Part shown: one piece after another, positions 19,372-29,330 of the stretch | How positions within the stretch are numbered: position 1 is the stretch's first letter | How the letters are laid out: each line of letters opens with the position of its first letter | Assembly (NCBI GenBank): GCA_009840135.1 | Contig: VXOH01000051.1 | Span: forward strand, 1 to 49,458 | Direction: 5' to 3' | Origin: Chloroflexota bacterium | GTDB taxonomy: Bacteria; Chloroflexota; Dehalococcoidia; Lucifugimonadales; UBA3495 | DNA: 49,458 bases | Position numbers and translations under genes: made by a program | The notes under the pieces: generated by a model | Databases searched by the model: none | What the model saw: the letters and a program-made list of their open reading frames with translations, nothing else | Told to the model about the DNA's origin: nothing

Positions 19372-21408
19372 ATGACCGGGCGCCAGGGACACCAGCGGCG
19401 CTACTACCTGTCCGACATCCCGCTGGAGGAAGCCCGGGACCGGTTTCATACCGCCCTGCGCCAGGCCGGGGCGCTGGAGCCCCGGACGGCGGAAAACGTG
19501 CCCCTTGCCCAGGCCCGGGGCCGCGTGACCGCCGGTCCCGTCTGGGCGGTCGCCTCATCCCCCCACTACGATGCCGCCGCCATGGACGGCATTGCCGTCC
19601 GGGCAGCCGACACAACCGGGGCTACCGAAACCGCCCCCGTCTCCCTCACGGTCGGCGGCACGGCCATCGGCACGGCCATCGGCACAGTCAGTGACGCAGA
19701 AACGAGCAATGCGGCAGCCGGCGGCGGTGAACCCCAGGCGGTTTGGGTCAATACCGGCGACCCCATGCCGGCCGGCCTGGACGCCGTCATAATGATTGAG
19801 AACCTGCACCAGGTTGGCGACGACCACGTAAGCATCATGGCTCCCGTCGCCCCCTGGCAGCACGTCCGCCCGCTGGGGGAGGACATTGTCGCCACCGAAC
19901 TGGTCCTCCCCGAGAACCACCGGCTCGCCGCCGCCGACCTGGGCGCCTGCGCCGCCGCCGGCCTCAGCCGTGTGCCGGTCCGCCGTCGCCCCAGGGTAAC
20001 CATTATCCCCACCGGCAACGAGTTGGTGCCGGTGGGCAGCGAACTCAAACCCGGCGATATTATCGAGTTCAACTCGCTGATGCTCTCGGGCCTGCTGGAG
20101 GAATGGGGCGCGGCGCCTTCCGTAACACCCCCGGTTCCCGATGTCTTCACGGCCATACGGGATGCTGCCATAGCAGCCCTGGACTCCAGCGACCTCGTCG
20201 TCATCAACGCCGGGTCTTCTGCCGGCTCCGAGGACTACACCGCCCTGGTGGTCGAGGAACTGGGACAATTGCTGGTCCACGGCGTGGCCATCCGGCCGGG
20301 TCATCCGGTGGTGCTGGGAGTGGCCCGGGACAAGCCGCTGGTGGGCATCCCCGGCTATCCAGTATCCGCCATGCTCACCGCCGAGCTGCTTCTGAAGCCC
20401 CTGATTGAGCAATGGCTGGGCCAGGCGGGAAGCAGCCGGCGGCCGGTCGTCCACGCCAATATAACCCGCAAGGTGGTATCCCCGACCGGGGAGGACGAGT
20501 TCCTGCGGGTTAAGCTGGGCCGGGTGGGAGAGAAGATGGTGGCGACCCCCGTCCAGCGGGGAGCGGGGGTGATAATGTCCCTGGTCAGGGCCGACGGAAT
20601 GGTCAGGATACCCCGATTTTCCGAGGGCCTCGATGCCGGTTCCGATGTTGACGTGGAGCTGCTCCGCCCCCTGTCCGAGGTGGAAAATACCGTCGTCGCC
20701 ATCGGCAGCCACGACCTCACCCTGGACCTCATGTCCAGTTTCCTGCGCCGCCTTCCTGCCGGCTTGAGCCCTCCCAGCGTCAACCTCTCCTCTTCCCACG
20801 TCGGTTCCCTCGGAGGACTGATTGCCCTCCGCCGGGGCGAGGCCCACCTGGCCGGCTCCCATCTGCTGGATGAGGATACCGGCGAGTACAACGTCTCTTA
20901 CATTCGCCGCTACCTGGGTGACGTGCCGGTGGCCCTGGTAAACCTGGTGGGAAGGGTGCAGGGTCTGATCGTCAGGCCGGGAAATCCCATGGGTATCGCG
21001 GCCCTGTCCGATCTCCTGCGGCGGGACATCTCCTTCGTCAACCGGCAACGCGGTTCGGGAACCAGGGTGCTGCTGGACTACAAGCTCAAGGAATTGGGGG
21101 CTTCGCCTCAAGAGTTACGCGGCTATGAACGGGAGGAGTACAGCCACCTGGCCGTGGCGGCGGCGGTCAACGGCGGTTCCGCCGACGTGGGACTGGGCAT
21201 TCTCAGCGCAGCCAGGGCCCTGGGCCTGGACTTCATCCCCCTGCTGAACGAGCAATACGACCTGGTAATACCTCTTGTCCATTACGAGAGTGACTTGCTG
21301 CGTCCCCTGCTGGACCTGCTGGCCAATCCGGAATTTCGAAAAGCCGTGAACGACCTGGGGGGCTACGATACTACGAACATGGGCAGGCTCCAGGAGAAAA
21401 TCGGGTAG
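19372..21408 (+). CDS. MoeA-like molybdopterin biosynthesis protein fused to a periplasmic-binding-like domain
   Basis: In this 678-residue protein, residues 1-415 are a complete MoeA (MDGIAVRAADT, DAVIMIENLHQV, GNELVPVGSEL, NAGSSAGSEDYTA, GEDEFLRVKLG). Residues 430-678 form a PBP-like domain of the kind also fused to LysR- or ModE-type regulators (VAIGSHDLTLDLMSSFLRR, HVGSLGGLIALRRGEAHLAGSHLLDEDTGEYN, NRQRGSGTRVLLDYKL, PLVHYESDLLRPLLDLL). This fusion is known in archaea and some bacteria, where the extra domain is thought to bind a molybdate- or tungstate-related ligand, but its role is not settled. A short Ala-Ile-Gly-Thr repeat interrupts domain II. The start codon is 5 bases after the upstream stop. 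Confidence 0.9.
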   Translation: MTGRQGHQRRYYLSDIPLEEARDRFHTALRQAGALEPRTAENVPLAQARGRVTAGPVWAVASSPHYDAAAMDGIAVRAADTTGATETAPVSLTVGGTAIGTAIGTVSDAETSNAAAGGGEPQAVWVNTGDPMPAGLDAVIMIENLHQVGDDHVSIMAPVAPWQHVRPLGEDIVATELVLPENHRLAAADLGACAAAGLSRVPVRRRPRVTIIPTGNELVPVGSELKPGDIIEFNSLMLSGLLEEWGAAPSVTPPVPDVFTAIRDAAIAALDSSDLVVINAGSSAGSEDYTALVVEELGQLLVHGVAIRPGHPVVLGVARDKPLVGIPGYPVSAMLTAELLLKPLIEQWLGQAGSSRRPVVHANITRKVVSPTGEDEFLRVKLGRVGEKMVATPVQRGAGVIMSLVRADGMVRIPRFSEGLDAGSDVDVELLRPLSEVENTVVAIGSHDLTLDLMSSFLRRLPAGLSPPSVNLSSSHVGSLGGLIALRRGEAHLAGSHLLDEDTGEYNVSYIRRYLGDVPVALVNLVGRVQGLIVRPGNPMGIAALSDLLRRDISFVNRQRGSGTRVLLDYKLKELGASPQELRGYEREEYSHLAVAAAVNGGSADVGLGILSAARALGLDFIPLLNEQYDLVIPLVHYESDLLRPLLDLLANPEFRKAVNDLGGYDTTNMGRLQEKIG

Positions 21409-21687: not shown

Positions 21688-22788
21688 TTACTGGGAGTTG
21701 GCCAACACCTCTTCCACGGAACCTTCCATGGGATTGTCACCACCAAACGCGGCCCCCACGGTGCCATTCTCAAACTTGGCCAGCGCCAGGTCATAGACGG
21801 TCTGCGGGAAGGGAATGTACCCGACTTCCGCTGCCAGGGCCTGACCGTACTCGCCCAGGTAGTAACGGATGAACTCAGCGATGTGCGGGGTATCGGCCGC
21901 GTCCTTCCTTACGTAGATGAACATGGGTCTTGACAGCGGCGAGTAGGTCCCCTGGTTGATGTTGGCGTCCGTGGGAAGTACGCATCCGTTGCCTCCGTTT
22001 ATCTCCACCGCCTTCAGCCGGTCCGCGTTCTCCACGTAATAGGCGTATCCCAGGTACCCCACCCCGTGCTTGCCGCCGGACACCCCCTGGACGATCAGGT
22101 TGTCGTCTTCACTGGCGGTGAAGTCGCCTCGGGATGCCCCGGGATCTCCACTCACCGTATCCGTAAAGTAGTCAAAGGTACCCGAGTCCACCCCCGGCGC
22201 GTACATGTCCATCTCTTCCGCCGGCCAGCCCGGCCGTACCTGGTTCCACTGCGTAACCGTCTCTTCCGCCGCAGGCCCCCACATCCGGTCCAGCTCCTCG
22301 ATGGTCATGCACTGTACCCAGTCGTTCTCCTTGTTCACGATTACCGTCAGCCCGTCTACGGCTACCGGAATTTCGATGTACTCCACTCCGCCATCTTCAC
22401 ACAGGGCAACCTCTTCCGGCTTAATGGGGCGGGAAGCGTCGGAAATCTGGGTCTCACCGTTGCAGAACTTCTTGAAACCGCCGCCGGTACCGGAGACACC
22501 CACCGTTACCCGCACCTCGCCGTTGGTCAGCTTGCCAAACTCCTCGGCCACCGCCTCCGTTATGGGAAACACCGTGCTCGACCCGTCCACGTCAATGTCC
22601 CCGGATAGCGAGGCATAGGCGCTGGAGTTTGCGGCATCCCCGGTAGAAGATATGGTTACCTCAGCGGAAGTATCCGGCTGGCCGGCCGACCCACAGGCCA
22701 CGAGGACCATGGACATAACCATAGCCCCAAGAATTAAGGGAATGGTCCAGCCCTTGAAACTCGAACATGGGGATTTCTCAGAAGCCAT
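21688..22788 (-). CDS. pstS: Phosphate-binding protein of the PstS family (lipoprotein)
   Basis: The 366-residue lipoprotein has a signal peptide ending in MVLVACG, with the lipid-anchored Cys near residue 32. The mature part carries the PstS hallmarks IDVDGSSTVFPITEAVAEEF (phosphate-binding TS/ST loop), VGVSGTGGGFKKFCNGETQISDASRPI (SGTGGGF) and PGVDSGTFDYFTD. It would capture inorganic phosphate at the cell surface for a PstCAB importer, but no pstC, pstA or pstB is in the window. GGAGGAAC directly precedes the ATG. An array of 11-bp-spaced TTAA repeats lies 190-265 bases upstream. Confidence 0.92.
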   Translation of the reverse strand: MASEKSPCSSFKGWTIPLILGAMVMSMVLVACGSAGQPDTSAEVTISSTGDAANSSAYASLSGDIDVDGSSTVFPITEAVAEEFGKLTNGEVRVTVGVSGTGGGFKKFCNGETQISDASRPIKPEEVALCEDGGVEYIEIPVAVDGLTVIVNKENDWVQCMTIEELDRMWGPAAEETVTQWNQVRPGWPAEEMDMYAPGVDSGTFDYFTDTVSGDPGASRGDFTASEDDNLIVQGVSGGKHGVGYLGYAYYVENADRLKAVEINGGNGCVLPTDANINQGTYSPLSRPMFIYVRKDAADTPHIAEFIRYYLGEYGQALAAEVGYIPFPQTVYDLALAKFENGTVGAAFGGDNPMEGSVEEVLANSQ

Positions 22789-22976
22789 TGTTCCTCCTGT
22801 CTATGTCGGCCCTGCCTTTGCTAACATTTTACCGGCGACGGGTTCGTCGGCGGCCTTTATCCGCCAAACCTTGACTTGATATGAGTGTGGACCGGGTTGG
22901 AAGTTTCCAGATAATTACTGCGTGGGAAGCACAATCCGGTCCCGCCGAGTGTTCGCCACTAAGCCTATGGTCGGTC

Positions 22977-23053
22977 TGTCAACGAGCAATTAGATGGAAA
23001 TTAAGGCCCGTTTAAGGTCGAGTTAATAGTTGGTTAAACGGTCTGTTAGAGTC
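22977..23053. promoter_or_regulatory. Pho-box-like array of 11-bp direct repeats
   Basis: TTAA occurs at the same place in four consecutive 11-base units (23001, 23012, 23023, 23034), with imperfect units on both sides (TTAG at 22990, TCAA at 22979, GTTA at 23045). Examples of units are GTTTAAGGTCG, AGTTAATAGTT and GGTTAAACGGT. Eleven-base tandem sites are the known binding pattern of PhoB/PhoP-type regulators. The array lies between divergent pstS and aquaporin genes. Confidence 0.7.
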
Positions 23054-23093
23054 GGATTTACCGCAACCTGATGCCTTCTACTAGTGTATCCTT

Positions 23094-23099
23094 TATATT
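23094..23099 (+). promoter_or_regulatory. Candidate -10 box of the aquaporin gene
   Basis: TATATT lies 53 bases before the TTG start and 41 bases after the end of the 11-bp array. No good -35 is visible at the expected place, as is common for activator-dependent promoters. Confidence 0.35.
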
Positions 23100-23151: not shown

Positions 23152-23919
23152 TTGCTGATTCCCCTGTTAAAGCGGTCCCTGGCCGAGATGACTGGCACCT
23201 TCGGCATGGTGTTTGCCGGCGCCGGCGCCATCATGATTGATGAGTTGTCCGGCGGGAAGGTTACCCACCTGGGCGTTGGCATTACTTTCGGGCTGATAGT
23301 GGCCGCCATGATTTTTACCTTCGGCACTATTTCCGGCGCCCACATCAATCCGGCGGTAACGTTGGCCTTCGCCCTCACCCGACGCATCAGTTGGACTGTG
23401 GCCGCCAGCTACGTGCCGGCCCAGCTGGCTGGGGCGGTCCTGGCCAGCCTGGTGCTTTTCCAACTCCTGGGGCCGGCAGCCAATATGGGAGCCACCTTGC
23501 CTTCCGGCAGCGTCGAGCAGTCCCTGGGCCTGGAAATAATCCTTACCTTCATCTTGATGGCGACAATAATGTCCATCAGCCTTGAACCCAGAATTGCGGG
23601 GCCCGTGGCCGCCCTGGCCATTGGCGGAACCGTGGGGCTGGAGGCCATCTTTGCCGGCCCCATCTCGGGAGCGTCCATGAACCCGGCCAGGTCACTGGGT
23701 CCGGCGCTGGTGGGGTGGCATTGGCACGGACACTGGGCTTACTGGCTGGGCCCCATTTCAGGCGCGGCCCTGGGAGCGTTTCTGGTTTGCTGGCTCAAGG
23801 GCGTCCGGGTCTTCGCGGAAGTCGCCAGCAAAGAGCCCCAACCCGACCAGGCCGGAAACCGGCAGACACCTGCAAGGCCGGAAAGAGACCAACCCCTGGA
23901 GCAGACCGAAGGAGATTGA
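23152..23919 (+). CDS. Aquaporin / MIP-family channel
   Basis: The 255-residue membrane protein has six transmembrane segments plus the two re-entrant loops: GAHINPAVTLAFAL (first NPA) and GASMNPARSLGPALV (second NPA with the selectivity-filter Arg). It conducts water or small neutral solutes. Glycerol, silicic acid or arsenite cannot be excluded from sequence alone. A hydrophilic Pro/Gln-rich tail of about 35 residues follows the last helix. The start appears to be TTG at 23152 with GAGG upstream. It is divergent from pstS across the 11-bp repeat array, so it may share its control. Confidence 0.9.
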   Translation: MLIPLLKRSLAEMTGTFGMVFAGAGAIMIDELSGGKVTHLGVGITFGLIVAAMIFTFGTISGAHINPAVTLAFALTRRISWTVAASYVPAQLAGAVLASLVLFQLLGPAANMGATLPSGSVEQSLGLEIILTFILMATIMSISLEPRIAGPVAALAIGGTVGLEAIFAGPISGASMNPARSLGPALVGWHWHGHWAYWLGPISGAALGAFLVCWLKGVRVFAEVASKEPQPDQAGNRQTPARPERDQPLEQTEGD

Positions 23920-26040: not shown

Positions 26041-27861
26041 TTAGCCGACGCCGGGGCTGGCCGCTGGAATGGTGAAGGTAAAGGAGCAGCCCTCGCCCTC
26101 CCTGCTCTGCACGGAAATCTGGCCGCCGTGGGCCTCCACCAGCTGCTTGACGATGGCCAGGCCCAGGCCCGTGCCGCTGTCGCGCCGCGACCGGTTTACC
26201 TTGTAGAAGCGCTCGAAAAGGTGGGGCAGATGTTGGGGCGCCACGCCCACGCCCGTGTCCGTCAGGTCAACTTGCACGAAATCCCCGGCGGGCTGGGCCA
26301 GGATGCGGATTTCTCCTCCCTGCGGCGTAAACTTCAGGGCATTTTCCACCAGATTCACGAAAACCTGGGTCAGTTTCTCCCCGTCGGCCAACACCAGGGG
26401 TAACTCAGGCTCCACCGAAACGCTCAGCGAAACCTCCTGCTGCGCCGCCGCATCGCCGAACCGGCTCTGCACTCCTACTATCAGGGACTCCAGCGGTGTT
26501 GGTTCAGCTTCAATGCTGAATTGCCCACTCTCCATCCGCGACAATTCCAGCAAGCCGTCAACCAGCCCGTTGATGCGGTTCACATCCCCCCGCATACGGG
26601 CCAAAAAGTCCAGGGCCACCGGCGGCTCGTTCACCGCACCGGACTCCAGGGTCTCCACCATGGCTTGGATGGACGCCATGGGATTGCGCAGTTCGTGGGA
26701 TACATTGCTCACGAACTCCTTTTGGCTGGTCTCCACCTGCCGCATGCGGGTCAGATCGTGCATGGTAAGCAGCACGCCGCCGTTGTTCTCCAGGGGTGTG
26801 GCAATGGCGCTCAGGTACCTTCGGGGCGTGAGTAGAGATACCTCAACCTGCTGCCGGGCTTTTTCCGACTGGCAACCGGCGATTACCTGGTGAATCTCAT
26901 TGTCGCGGACCAGCTCTACCAGGCGTGTTCCGGTTGCGGCTTCCTGCCTTATGCCCAGCAGTTCCCGGGCCGCCGGATTCAGCAGCGATACCTGTCCTGC
27001 GGGCTCGACCACAATCACGCCGTCGGCCATGGTATCCAGGACTGCAGACAGCGTGTCCCGCTCCGAGGAGAGGTGCATAATGGCCGCCCCTACCGTATCA
27101 GCCATCCGGTTAAAGGCCTCAGTCAGGGGCTGGGTCTCCGTATTTTCAGTCGGCGGAATCCGGTTACCGTAGTCTCCTCCCTCCAGTCGCTGCATCCCTT
27201 CGATAAGGTCGCCTTGTGACCGCTGGGCACGGGAAGAGTGACGGGCTATCAGCCAGATTGCTGACAGGGCGAGCGCCCCTATTGCCAGGCCCCAGGCCGC
27301 AATCCAGTAGAAATCCGGGTCAACGCCCGGGGCCGGTTGAGGCGGGGGAGTTTCCAGCTTGACTACACCGATGACTTCTCCTTCTTCCAGTACGGGAGCG
27401 GCGGTGTAAATCGCCTGGGAAGGGTAGGAGTGAAATATCGCTGCGAAGGCGGTTGCCACATGGCCCAGGCGAGCTCTCAGGAGAAGGTTATCGGACTGAA
27501 AGTCGTACACGACAGGCGACTCACCATTGCCTGACCGCAAGTCCGAATGACTGTCGGCCAGCGCCTCGCCGGAGGCGGCGATAATAATAACCCGGCTTCC
27601 GGTCCAACGGCTCAGAAAAGCGCCAAGTTCCTGAAAGGACGCAAAGTTTGAGGACGAGTCCGGGGAGGCAAGGTAGTTAGCGATCAGGGTGGCGGCAGCC
27701 TCGGCTTCCTTTTCCTTCAAGGGTTGCAGTTCCGCCAGTTCATCCAGATCGGGCTCCGGCGGGGGACTAAACAAAAAGAAGAGCAGGGGAAACAGAGTTG
27801 CGAGGATAATCGCCGCAAAAACAGCCGAGACACGAAAGGTAAAGGAGCGGTGAAATCTCAT
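26041..27861 (-). CDS. PhoR-type sensor histidine kinase
   Basis: The 606-residue kinase has a transmembrane segment near residues 10-31, an extracytoplasmic sensor region of about 150 residues, and a second segment near 184-205. HAMP (about 206-258) and PAS (SAVLDTMADGVIVVEPAG, about 270-370) domains follow, then the dimerisation domain with the phosphorylated His in SNVSHELRNPMASIQ (near residue 388) and an ATPase domain with N, G1, F and G2 boxes (NALKFTPQGG, DTGVGV, LFERFYK, GTGLGLAIVK). This order, with PAS after HAMP, is the PhoR/WalK plan. Its ATG overlaps the regulator's stop codon in ATGA, so the two are coupled. Its proximity to pstS makes phosphate sensing likely but not proven. 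Confidence 0.88.
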   Translation of the reverse strand: MRFHRSFTFRVSAVFAAIILATLFPLLFFLFSPPPEPDLDELAELQPLKEKEAEAAATLIANYLASPDSSSNFASFQELGAFLSRWTGSRVIIIAASGEALADSHSDLRSGNGESPVVYDFQSDNLLLRARLGHVATAFAAIFHSYPSQAIYTAAPVLEEGEVIGVVKLETPPPQPAPGVDPDFYWIAAWGLAIGALALSAIWLIARHSSRAQRSQGDLIEGMQRLEGGDYGNRIPPTENTETQPLTEAFNRMADTVGAAIMHLSSERDTLSAVLDTMADGVIVVEPAGQVSLLNPAARELLGIRQEAATGTRLVELVRDNEIHQVIAGCQSEKARQQVEVSLLTPRRYLSAIATPLENNGGVLLTMHDLTRMRQVETSQKEFVSNVSHELRNPMASIQAMVETLESGAVNEPPVALDFLARMRGDVNRINGLVDGLLELSRMESGQFSIEAEPTPLESLIVGVQSRFGDAAAQQEVSLSVSVEPELPLVLADGEKLTQVFVNLVENALKFTPQGGEIRILAQPAGDFVQVDLTDTGVGVAPQHLPHLFERFYKVNRSRRDSGTGLGLAIVKQLVEAHGGQISVQSREGEGCSFTFTIPAASPGVG

Positions 27862-28559
27862 CCGTCCAACCGGTAGCCAACTCCTCTGATGGTAACAATG
27901 CAGCGAGCGGTGGAGGGGTCGGCCTGGAGCTTTTCCCTCAGCCAGCTGATATAGACATCCACCGTCCTGGTCTGCCCGATGTAGTCATACCCCCAGACCT
28001 TCTCCAGAATCTGGTCGCGGGTGAATGCCCGGCCCTTGTTGGAAGCCAGCAGGGCCAGCAGGTCAAACTCCTTGGGCTTCAGGCTCAACGGCCGACCCGC
28101 CAGCCGCGCCTCGTGGCTGTTCAGGTCAATCTCCAGGGCGCCTATTCGGTGGCTGGGACGCTCGCCGGCTACCCCCTGATCGTCTTTCAGGTACTTGGTT
28201 CGGCGCAGCGTATTTCGCACCCTGGCAACCAGTTCCCGGATGCTGAAGGGCTTGGTGATGTAGTCGTCCGCGCCCAGCTCCAGCCCGACCACCCGGTCAA
28301 CTTCCTCGCCCTTGGCAGTCAGCATCAGGATGGGCACTTCCGACTCCCGGCGCAGGATCCGGCAAATCTCGAATCCGTCCAGGGTGGGCAGCATGATATC
28401 AAGGAGAATGAGTGAGGGATTGAGCTTACGGGCCATTTCCAGGCCCTCGCCGCCGTCGGAAGCGGTATGGACCTGGTAGCCTTCCCGCTCCAGGTTGTAT
28501 CGCAGGGCTTCCAGGAGATTCTCTTCGTCCTCTACGACGAGCACTGAACGATCCGGCAC
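27858..28559 (-). CDS. PhoB/OmpR-family response regulator
   Basis: The receiver domain (VLVVEDEENLLEAL) has the phospho-acceptor Asp in LILLDIMLPTLDG (residue 54) and Lys in TKPFSIREL. It is followed by a winged-helix DNA-binding domain (LSLKPKEFDLLALLASNKGRAFTRDQILEKVWGYDY...VDVYISWLREKL). The size of 233 residues is normal for PhoB. I choose the GTG at 28559: GGAGGG lies 5 bases upstream and the protein then starts like its relatives. A frame continues to a GTG at 28664 and would add 35 residues made largely of Gly-Ser-Thr-Pro-Glu repeats. Proteins of this family bind 11-bp direct repeats such as those at 22977-23053. Confidence 0.88.
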   Translation of the reverse strand: MPDRSVLVVEDEENLLEALRYNLEREGYQVHTASDGGEGLEMARKLNPSLILLDIMLPTLDGFEICRILRRESEVPILMLTAKGEEVDRVVGLELGADDYITKPFSIRELVARVRNTLRRTKYLKDDQGVAGERPSHRIGALEIDLNSHEARLAGRPLSLKPKEFDLLALLASNKGRAFTRDQILEKVWGYDYIGQTRTVDVYISWLREKLQADPSTARCIVTIRGVGYRLDG

Positions 28560-28565
28560 AAGACC

Positions 28566-28628
28566 CTCCGGCGTAGAACCCTCCGGCGTAGAACCCTCCG
28601 GCGTAGAACCCGCCAGCGCAGAACCCTC
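28566..28628. repeat. 15-bp tandem repeat upstream of or within the regulator gene
   Basis: About four units of GCGTAGAACCCTCCG (plus strand), the last ones diverged. On the coding strand each unit carries GGAGGGTTC, so each contains a ribosome-site-like sequence. If the longer reading frame is used they encode GSTPE repeats. Confidence 0.8.
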
Positions 28629-28718
28629 AATTGCAACGCTACTTCCGGTGGATGCGTCAATCACCTGACGCCATTGCCGAGTTCCAGGTCGGGCCCGGGC
28701 CCTCGGCTCTCAACGAGC

Positions 28719-28724: not shown

Positions 28725-28830
28725 GCAACTGTTTCATCTTATGACAGGGCTGACAAGACGCGCCACCGGCAGAAACCCGACAGGCCAAACCGGTAAACAA
28801 AAAGGGGACAACGTTGTCGTTGTCCCTCTC

Positions 28831-29163
28831 CTAGTCGGCGGAAAGAGCCAGTTCCGCGCTCTCCACGTCCGGTAATGAGTTTTTCAACGTCAGCAAGGAG
28901 AAGCGGTTCACCTCCCTCAGGCCGGCCCACGAGATTACCAGGGTCTCGTCATACTCGATTGACACCGACCAGGGACTGTAAACATCGCGATATGCGTGGT
29001 GGGGAGCGGCGCTTCGACCCAGGGCGAGAAACCGGTTTTCGGGGGCATTCTCCCGCAGCCAGGCATGAGAAAAGACGCTCTCAGCGCCATCTTCCCATAC
29101 GATGACCAGCGCCTCATCTTCCCTGATTATCTTAGAAACCGGCGCCTCACGTTCAGAAATCAT
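28831..29163 (-). CDS. DUF971 / gamma-butyrobetaine hydroxylase N-terminal-like protein
   Basis: The 110-residue protein matches the stand-alone DUF971 domain: LVIVWEDGAESVFSHAWLRENAPENR is the defining block, followed by WSVSIEYDETLVISWAGLREVNRFSLLTL. The zinc-ligand cysteines found in the N-terminal domain of gamma-butyrobetaine hydroxylases are not present here. In other bacteria the domain is found alone or attached to Fe-S assembly proteins (Mrp/ApbC), and its role is unclear. There is no ribosome site better than AAGGGA before the ATG. It stands alone. Confidence 0.72.
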   Translation of the reverse strand: MISEREAPVSKIIREDEALVIVWEDGAESVFSHAWLRENAPENRFLALGRSAAPHHAYRDVYSPWSVSIEYDETLVISWAGLREVNRFSLLTLKNSLPDVESAELALSAD

Positions 29164-29330
29164 ACCAATCCCTTTTCAAATCCGATTTTCACCAACCACA
29201 ATTAGAGGATATGGTGAGGGTATTAATCCGGCATTACGAAAGGGTTAAAAGTTAATTTCCTCAATGTTAACAATATGTAAAACAGCAAACGAGGCTTGCC
29301 GCGAAGGAGGGAATCTCTGGGCCCTGGCGA

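Follow-up and report, generated by a model that had tools for sequence, protein, structure and literature searches.

A TTAA-Type Multi-Unit Pho Box as the Probable Promoter Element of pstS in a Dehalococcoidia Bacterium (Chloroflexota)

Introduction

Between the divergent pstS and aquaporin genes of a Chloroflexota (Dehalococcoidia) contig lies a series of TTAA tetranucleotides repeated at 11-bp intervals. Is this series a regulatory site and, if so, which protein would bind it and which of the two genes would it serve? The window analysed here is the whole 49,458-nucleotide stretch carrying this locus, and its closest relatives are Dehalococcoidia/Chloroflexota metagenome genomes. In cyanobacteria the Pho box consists of tandem repeats of CTTAACCT (PMC1906773), and PhoB/SphR binds three tandem TTAA repeats, binding being lost in EMSA when any one of them is mutated (PMC11126600). 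Since cyanobacteria have an established TTAA Pho box, this kind of site is already known; no published description of a Chloroflexota Pho box was found in the part of the literature that was covered. We report that the series is very probably a docking array of the phosphate-starvation regulator PhoB, upstream of the pstS promoter. Coordinates are collected in Table 1.

Table 1. Features of the pstS/aquaporin locus and of the neighbouring phoBR region (window positions)
Feature	Position	Strand	Remarks
pstS, phosphate-binding protein	21688..22788	-	TIGR02136 293.7 bits; PF12849
Predicted -10 box TAGGCT (TAN3T)	22962..22967	-	15 nt from start of last unit core
Predicted pstS-directed PhoB-type array	22979..23037	-	six 11-bp units
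TTAA cores of the array units	23037-23034, 23026-23023, 23015-23012, 23004-23001	-	minus-strand reading
Last two cores of the array units	CTAA 22993-22990, TTGA 22982-22979	-	minus-strand reading
Predicted weaker aquaporin-directed box with -10 TATATT (23094-23099)	23046..23099	+	aligned with four congeners' arrays and TATAGT
Aquaporin gene (MIP family)	23152..23919	+	PF00230
phoR-type sensor kinase gene	26041..27861	-	HAMP-PAS-HisKA-HATPase
phoB, OmpR/PhoB-family response regulator	27858..28664	-	W241 at the E. coli R201 position
Small protein gene next to phoBR	28831..29163	-	weak match to GBBH-like_N (DUF971)
Second predicted PhoB-type array with -10 TATCCT (29206-29211)	29206..29281	-	1 mismatch; predicted target, gene 28831-29163

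Results

In the window sequence, exact TTAA cores begin at positions 23001, 23012, 23023 and 23034, spaced exactly 11 bp apart and spanning 23001-23037; they are flanked left and right by near-matches in phase (TCAA at 22979, TTAG at 22990 and GTTA at 23045). An earlier note on this DNA had described seven units; the four TTAA cores and their spacing are borne out by the sequence, by shuffling and by the uniqueness of the array in the genome, whereas GTTA, which matches TTAA in two of four letters, is at best a weak seventh unit. A better unit near this position is TTAG at 23046; its distance to the last TTAA is 12 bp, and it shares the register of the -10 box on the aquaporin side. With GTTA weak and TTAG out of register, we count six good units plus a junction. 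The array has the tandem direct repeats of 11-bp period that define a Pho box, and on the minus strand the units TTTAACCA, ATTAACTC, CTTAAACG and CTTAATTT fit the cyanobacterial type (at least three TTAA-core units resembling CTTAACCT; consensus from PMC1906773).

Short cores such as TTAA could in principle fall into phase by chance, or in an AT-rich low-complexity repeat with no regulatory role. None of the analyses run favoured this explanation. The observed scores for four, five, six and seven units were reached neither in 200 Markov shuffles of the window nor in 20,000 shuffles of the 363-bp intergenic region. Three or more exact phased TTAA cores were found at this array only in the whole 3.45-Mb genome (reversed-pattern control, 0), of which it is also the sole exact four-unit array. 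Together with these results, the conservation of the array above its flanks in the genus intergenic alignment and the phase-locked -10 box described below leave chance a negligible probability.

The array is present before pstS in all four congeners examined. In the genus alignment of the intergenic region, conservation is highest at the array, the conserved part being the array and the CATAG(G/C)CT block that follows it. Within the same family or order, exact arrays precede pstS in seven further genomes (G007, G012, G013, G023, G031, G032 and G034). Four of four exact units were also seen in L013, L054 and L058, and three of three in several others, including Chloroflexota and cyanobacteria (genomes G002-G004 correspond to L003-L005, and G007 to L013). 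In L006-L010, which are more distantly related, the pstS copy is not preceded by an array. The array thus lies upstream of a phosphate-acquisition gene and is kept in orthologues; the absence of the pattern upstream of pstS orthologues, which the earlier note had named as grounds for abandoning its reading, was looked for, and the array was found before the pstS genes of the congeners. As judged from these sequences, the TTAA-array design before pstS recurs across Chloroflexota.

Read on the minus strand, the six units are followed by 4 nt and then by a TAN3T -10 box at 22962-22967. Of 44 arrays, 29 had TAN3T in the same helical phase, with 1-7 occurrences in each of the other ten phases, and in the non-redundant set it was found in this phase in 20 of the 23 pstS arrays. 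The offset from GTCA to TATAGT at E. coli phoA, checked on the sequence, is likewise 15. A fixed spacing between the last repeat and TAN3T, with no -35 element, is a further mark of Pho boxes that the array carries. The phase-locked TAN3T and the phoA-like offset point to a promoter of the PhoB-activated kind, its last repeat taking the place of the -35 element, and the array is best read as a predicted PhoB-activated pstS promoter on the minus strand. An ordinary sigma-70 promoter was also sought in the intergenic region; the consensus scan gave one weak plus-strand site, no more than in shuffles, and this candidate was set aside.

On the aquaporin side, units at 11-bp steps (TTAG at 23046, TTTA at 23057, CTGA at 23068 and TACT at 23079) form a weaker box that directly adjoins the pstS array, with its register shifted by one base. 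The aquaporin genes of G002, G003 and G004 each have a TTAA array to themselves, separate from that of pstS and with a TATAGT in the same phase; an aquaporin-side array with in-phase TATAGT was read by eye in G001. The array had earlier been thought to control both genes. Since TTAA is identical on both strands, a single symmetrical array lying between divergent genes could control both equally, and the aquaporin neighbourhood is kept in the genus; nevertheless, the in-phase -10 box is on the pstS side, congeners have a second, separate TATAGT array for aquaporin, and the aquaporin-side units of the window are shifted by one base. Symmetrical control is therefore unlikely and was rejected as the main reading. 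The pstS half of the earlier proposal is supported, given the in-phase -10 box, but one array would not serve both genes, since a second, weaker box adjoins it for aquaporin. The aquaporin gene is likely to be under this Pho-type promoter of its own, although the weakness of its units makes this control less certain.

To the right of the aquaporin gene, all on the minus strand, are genes for a nuclease-like LTD/GmrSD_C protein, the PhoR-type kinase and the PhoB-type regulator. The best window-wide matches included no Pho-type array in the vicinity of the nuclease gene. The window also encodes (19372-21408) a MoeA-type molybdopterin protein with a C-terminal PBP_like substrate-binding domain fused on.

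The PhoB-type regulator that the earlier note had placed nearby is identified by gene context and recognition helix as the product of phoB (27858-28664), about 5 kb from the array. Its product scored 223.8 bits against the NCBIfam PhoB model (TIGR02154; cut-off 296.2) and was outscored by the YycF and MtrA models; being below the cut-off, it is called PhoB-type rather than a TIGR02154 equivalog, and its identity rests on context and helix. The best NCBIfam models for the sensor kinase were PnpS, WalK and PhoR, all below cut-off. The base-contacting residues of E. coli PhoB are T194, V197, R201 and R219 (PMC3264566). When the window PhoB is aligned to it, T194, V197 and R219 are kept and R201 is replaced by W, as in two cyanobacterial SphR-like regulators. 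Chloroflexota PhoB proteins paired with TTAA arrays have W at this position, except two with H; where the paired array is GTAA or GTCA, the regulator has R. When G and T were given equal scores at the first base, the counts were 21 for W with T-cores, 1 for W with G, 0 for R with T and 9 for R with G (Fisher p 5e-7); as the samples are related by descent, the p-value is uncorrected for kinship and several R-type arrays score low, the association is only a lead. The two PhoB proteins with H (L035 and L041, Tepidiforma and related) have only two TTAAA units before pstS and appear to be an intermediate type.

Elsewhere in this genome, the next-best four-unit match (C28:23841) lies directly before pstC in a pst operon with pstB (pstC-pstA-pstB); its -10 sequence, CACAAT, fits only as A2/T6. 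Further four-unit matches lie between two ammonium transporter genes (C82:7781) and before a ProX-like gene (C5:19397). The former (L104, G000:C82:7781-7817) is a phased GTTAAC/GTAAC 11-bp array of OmpR-type-like, perhaps GlnR-like, character, and could reflect nitrogen control or phosphate cross-talk. The genome's best promoter-oriented match is the second predicted array in Table 1, which together with its -10 box is kept in G001, G002, G003 and G007 and was found in G004. The small DUF971/GBBH-like_N gene beside phoBR has a predicted Pho-type promoter of its own, kept in the genus (28831-29281), and since a terminator-like hairpin (28805-28826) separates it from phoB, it is probably a target in its own right. 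At three mismatches the promoter pattern was no commoner in this genome than its control, so the regulon cannot be read by pattern alone, and an attempt to define it in this way was dropped.

Across the class, exact matches to the signature TTAA-N7-TTAA-N7-TTAA-N11-TAN3T numbered 84 and were spread over 56 of 245 genomes (reversed control, 6), and 30 of these loci were read for the downstream gene. The pattern was followed by pstS at no fewer than nine of the 30, by methylglyoxal synthase at 11 (PF02142 confirmed for two), by a PHO4-family phosphate transporter at two (one Pfam-confirmed) and by a calcineurin-like phosphoesterase at one. The earlier note had asked whether the pattern precedes pst, phosphatase and nuclease genes; in the class-wide loci it does so for pst and, at one locus, for a phosphoesterase gene, and the best matches in the window show none for the nuclease gene. 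The methylglyoxal synthase loci with array and -10 box directly upstream are L191-L195, L197-L199, L203, L204 and L207 (same class); that of L193 looks frameshifted. At L081 (G033:C3:65859) a phased TTAA array lies between genes for a plsY-like glycerol-3-phosphate acyltransferase and an SBF-family (ACR3-like) transporter. At L092 (G007:C2:1140063), three exact 11-bp units, TTAACCTATCC, precede trkA-type potassium uptake genes and are possibly the site of another OmpR-family regulator.

Could the pstS array itself be bound by another OmpR-family regulator, for example one of osmotic, potassium or nitrogen control, its placement before pstS being secondary? The genome has eight Trans_reg_C domains, direct repeats of 11 bp are a common trait of OmpR/PhoB-family sites (PMC4832192), and similar phased arrays occur by the amt pair and the ProX-like gene here and by trkA in G007. 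However, in the class as a whole the sites are found mainly at phosphate genes, phoBR is 5 kb from the array, and among the eight OmpR-type DNA-binding domains of this genome only that of PhoB has W at the R201 position, as in TTAA-binding SphR-like proteins. Binding by another family member is thus very improbable.

Discussion

The repeats, their geometry, their conservation and their gene context are directly visible in the DNA. With high confidence, we interpret the array as a multi-unit Pho box with the TTAA cores typical of cyanobacterial SphR sites, which would drive pstS via phosphorylated PhoB. The PhoB-type box proposed in the earlier note gains strong support from its conservation before pstS genes and the fixed spacing to the -10 box, and also from a further pst site in this genome, from phoBR close by and from the precedent of a proven TTAA Pho box in cyanobacteria. 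As to the identity of the binding protein, activation and the response to phosphate, we infer the following: upon phosphate starvation, phosphorylated PhoB would occupy the 11-bp direct repeats in head-to-tail order, one protomer per unit and all on one face of the helix; the last unit, its core 15 nt from the -10 box, would occupy the -35 position; PhoB would recruit RNA polymerase, so that pstS is transcribed leftwards; and the aquaporin gene would be driven from the adjoining weaker box on the other strand, which is shifted by one base.

The nearest known counterpart is the SphR/PhoB box of Synechocystis PCC 6803 (CTTAACCT with 3-bp linkers), which shares the 11-bp tandem TTAA-core repeats upstream of pst genes, and the cyanobacterial SphR-like regulators examined share W at the R201 position. 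The present case differs in that the host belongs to Chloroflexota, there are six units rather than at least three, binding is predicted, and pstS is separate from pstCAB. The E. coli PhoB box (CTGTCAT repeats; phoA, pstS) also has 11-bp direct repeats that replace the -35 element and, at phoA, the same 15 nt from core to TAN3T; however, its core is GTCA rather than TTAA, its regulator has R201 rather than W, and the present array is longer. The actinobacterial PhoP/RegX3 PHO box (GTTCACC repeats) likewise has 11-bp repeats before pstS, and RegX3 (2oqr) is the nearest solved structure by sequence to the window PhoB, but the core sequence differs and the key position of the regulator is occupied by R instead of W.

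Three points appear to be new here, as far as sequence comparison goes: the extension of the TTAA box to Chloroflexota; the R201-to-W change, which goes with TTAA rather than GTNA cores; and a putative Dehalococcoidia-wide box, often found before methylglyoxal synthase. Methylglyoxal synthase frees phosphate from dihydroxyacetone phosphate, which fits a role in starvation. These loci suggest that the methylglyoxal bypass may be under phosphate-starvation control; E. coli mgsA has been described as activated in phosphate starvation (PMC10665441). A bolder proposal is that the R201-to-W change alone is the switch between the GTNA and TTAA (Chloroflexota, cyanobacteria) classes of Pho box, and that methylglyoxal synthase is a conserved starvation target within a Dehalococcoidia TTAA regulon. 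This is tentative, and we judge it slightly more doubtful than probable.

For uncultivated Chloroflexota (Dehalococcoidia), the array offers a readable signature of phosphate starvation, so that Pho regulons may be predicted from metagenome genomes by the class-wide pattern. It also makes a testable claim, that one PhoB residue alters the DNA letters read, and it points to unexpected candidate targets, namely methylglyoxal synthase, aquaporin and a small DUF971-like protein.
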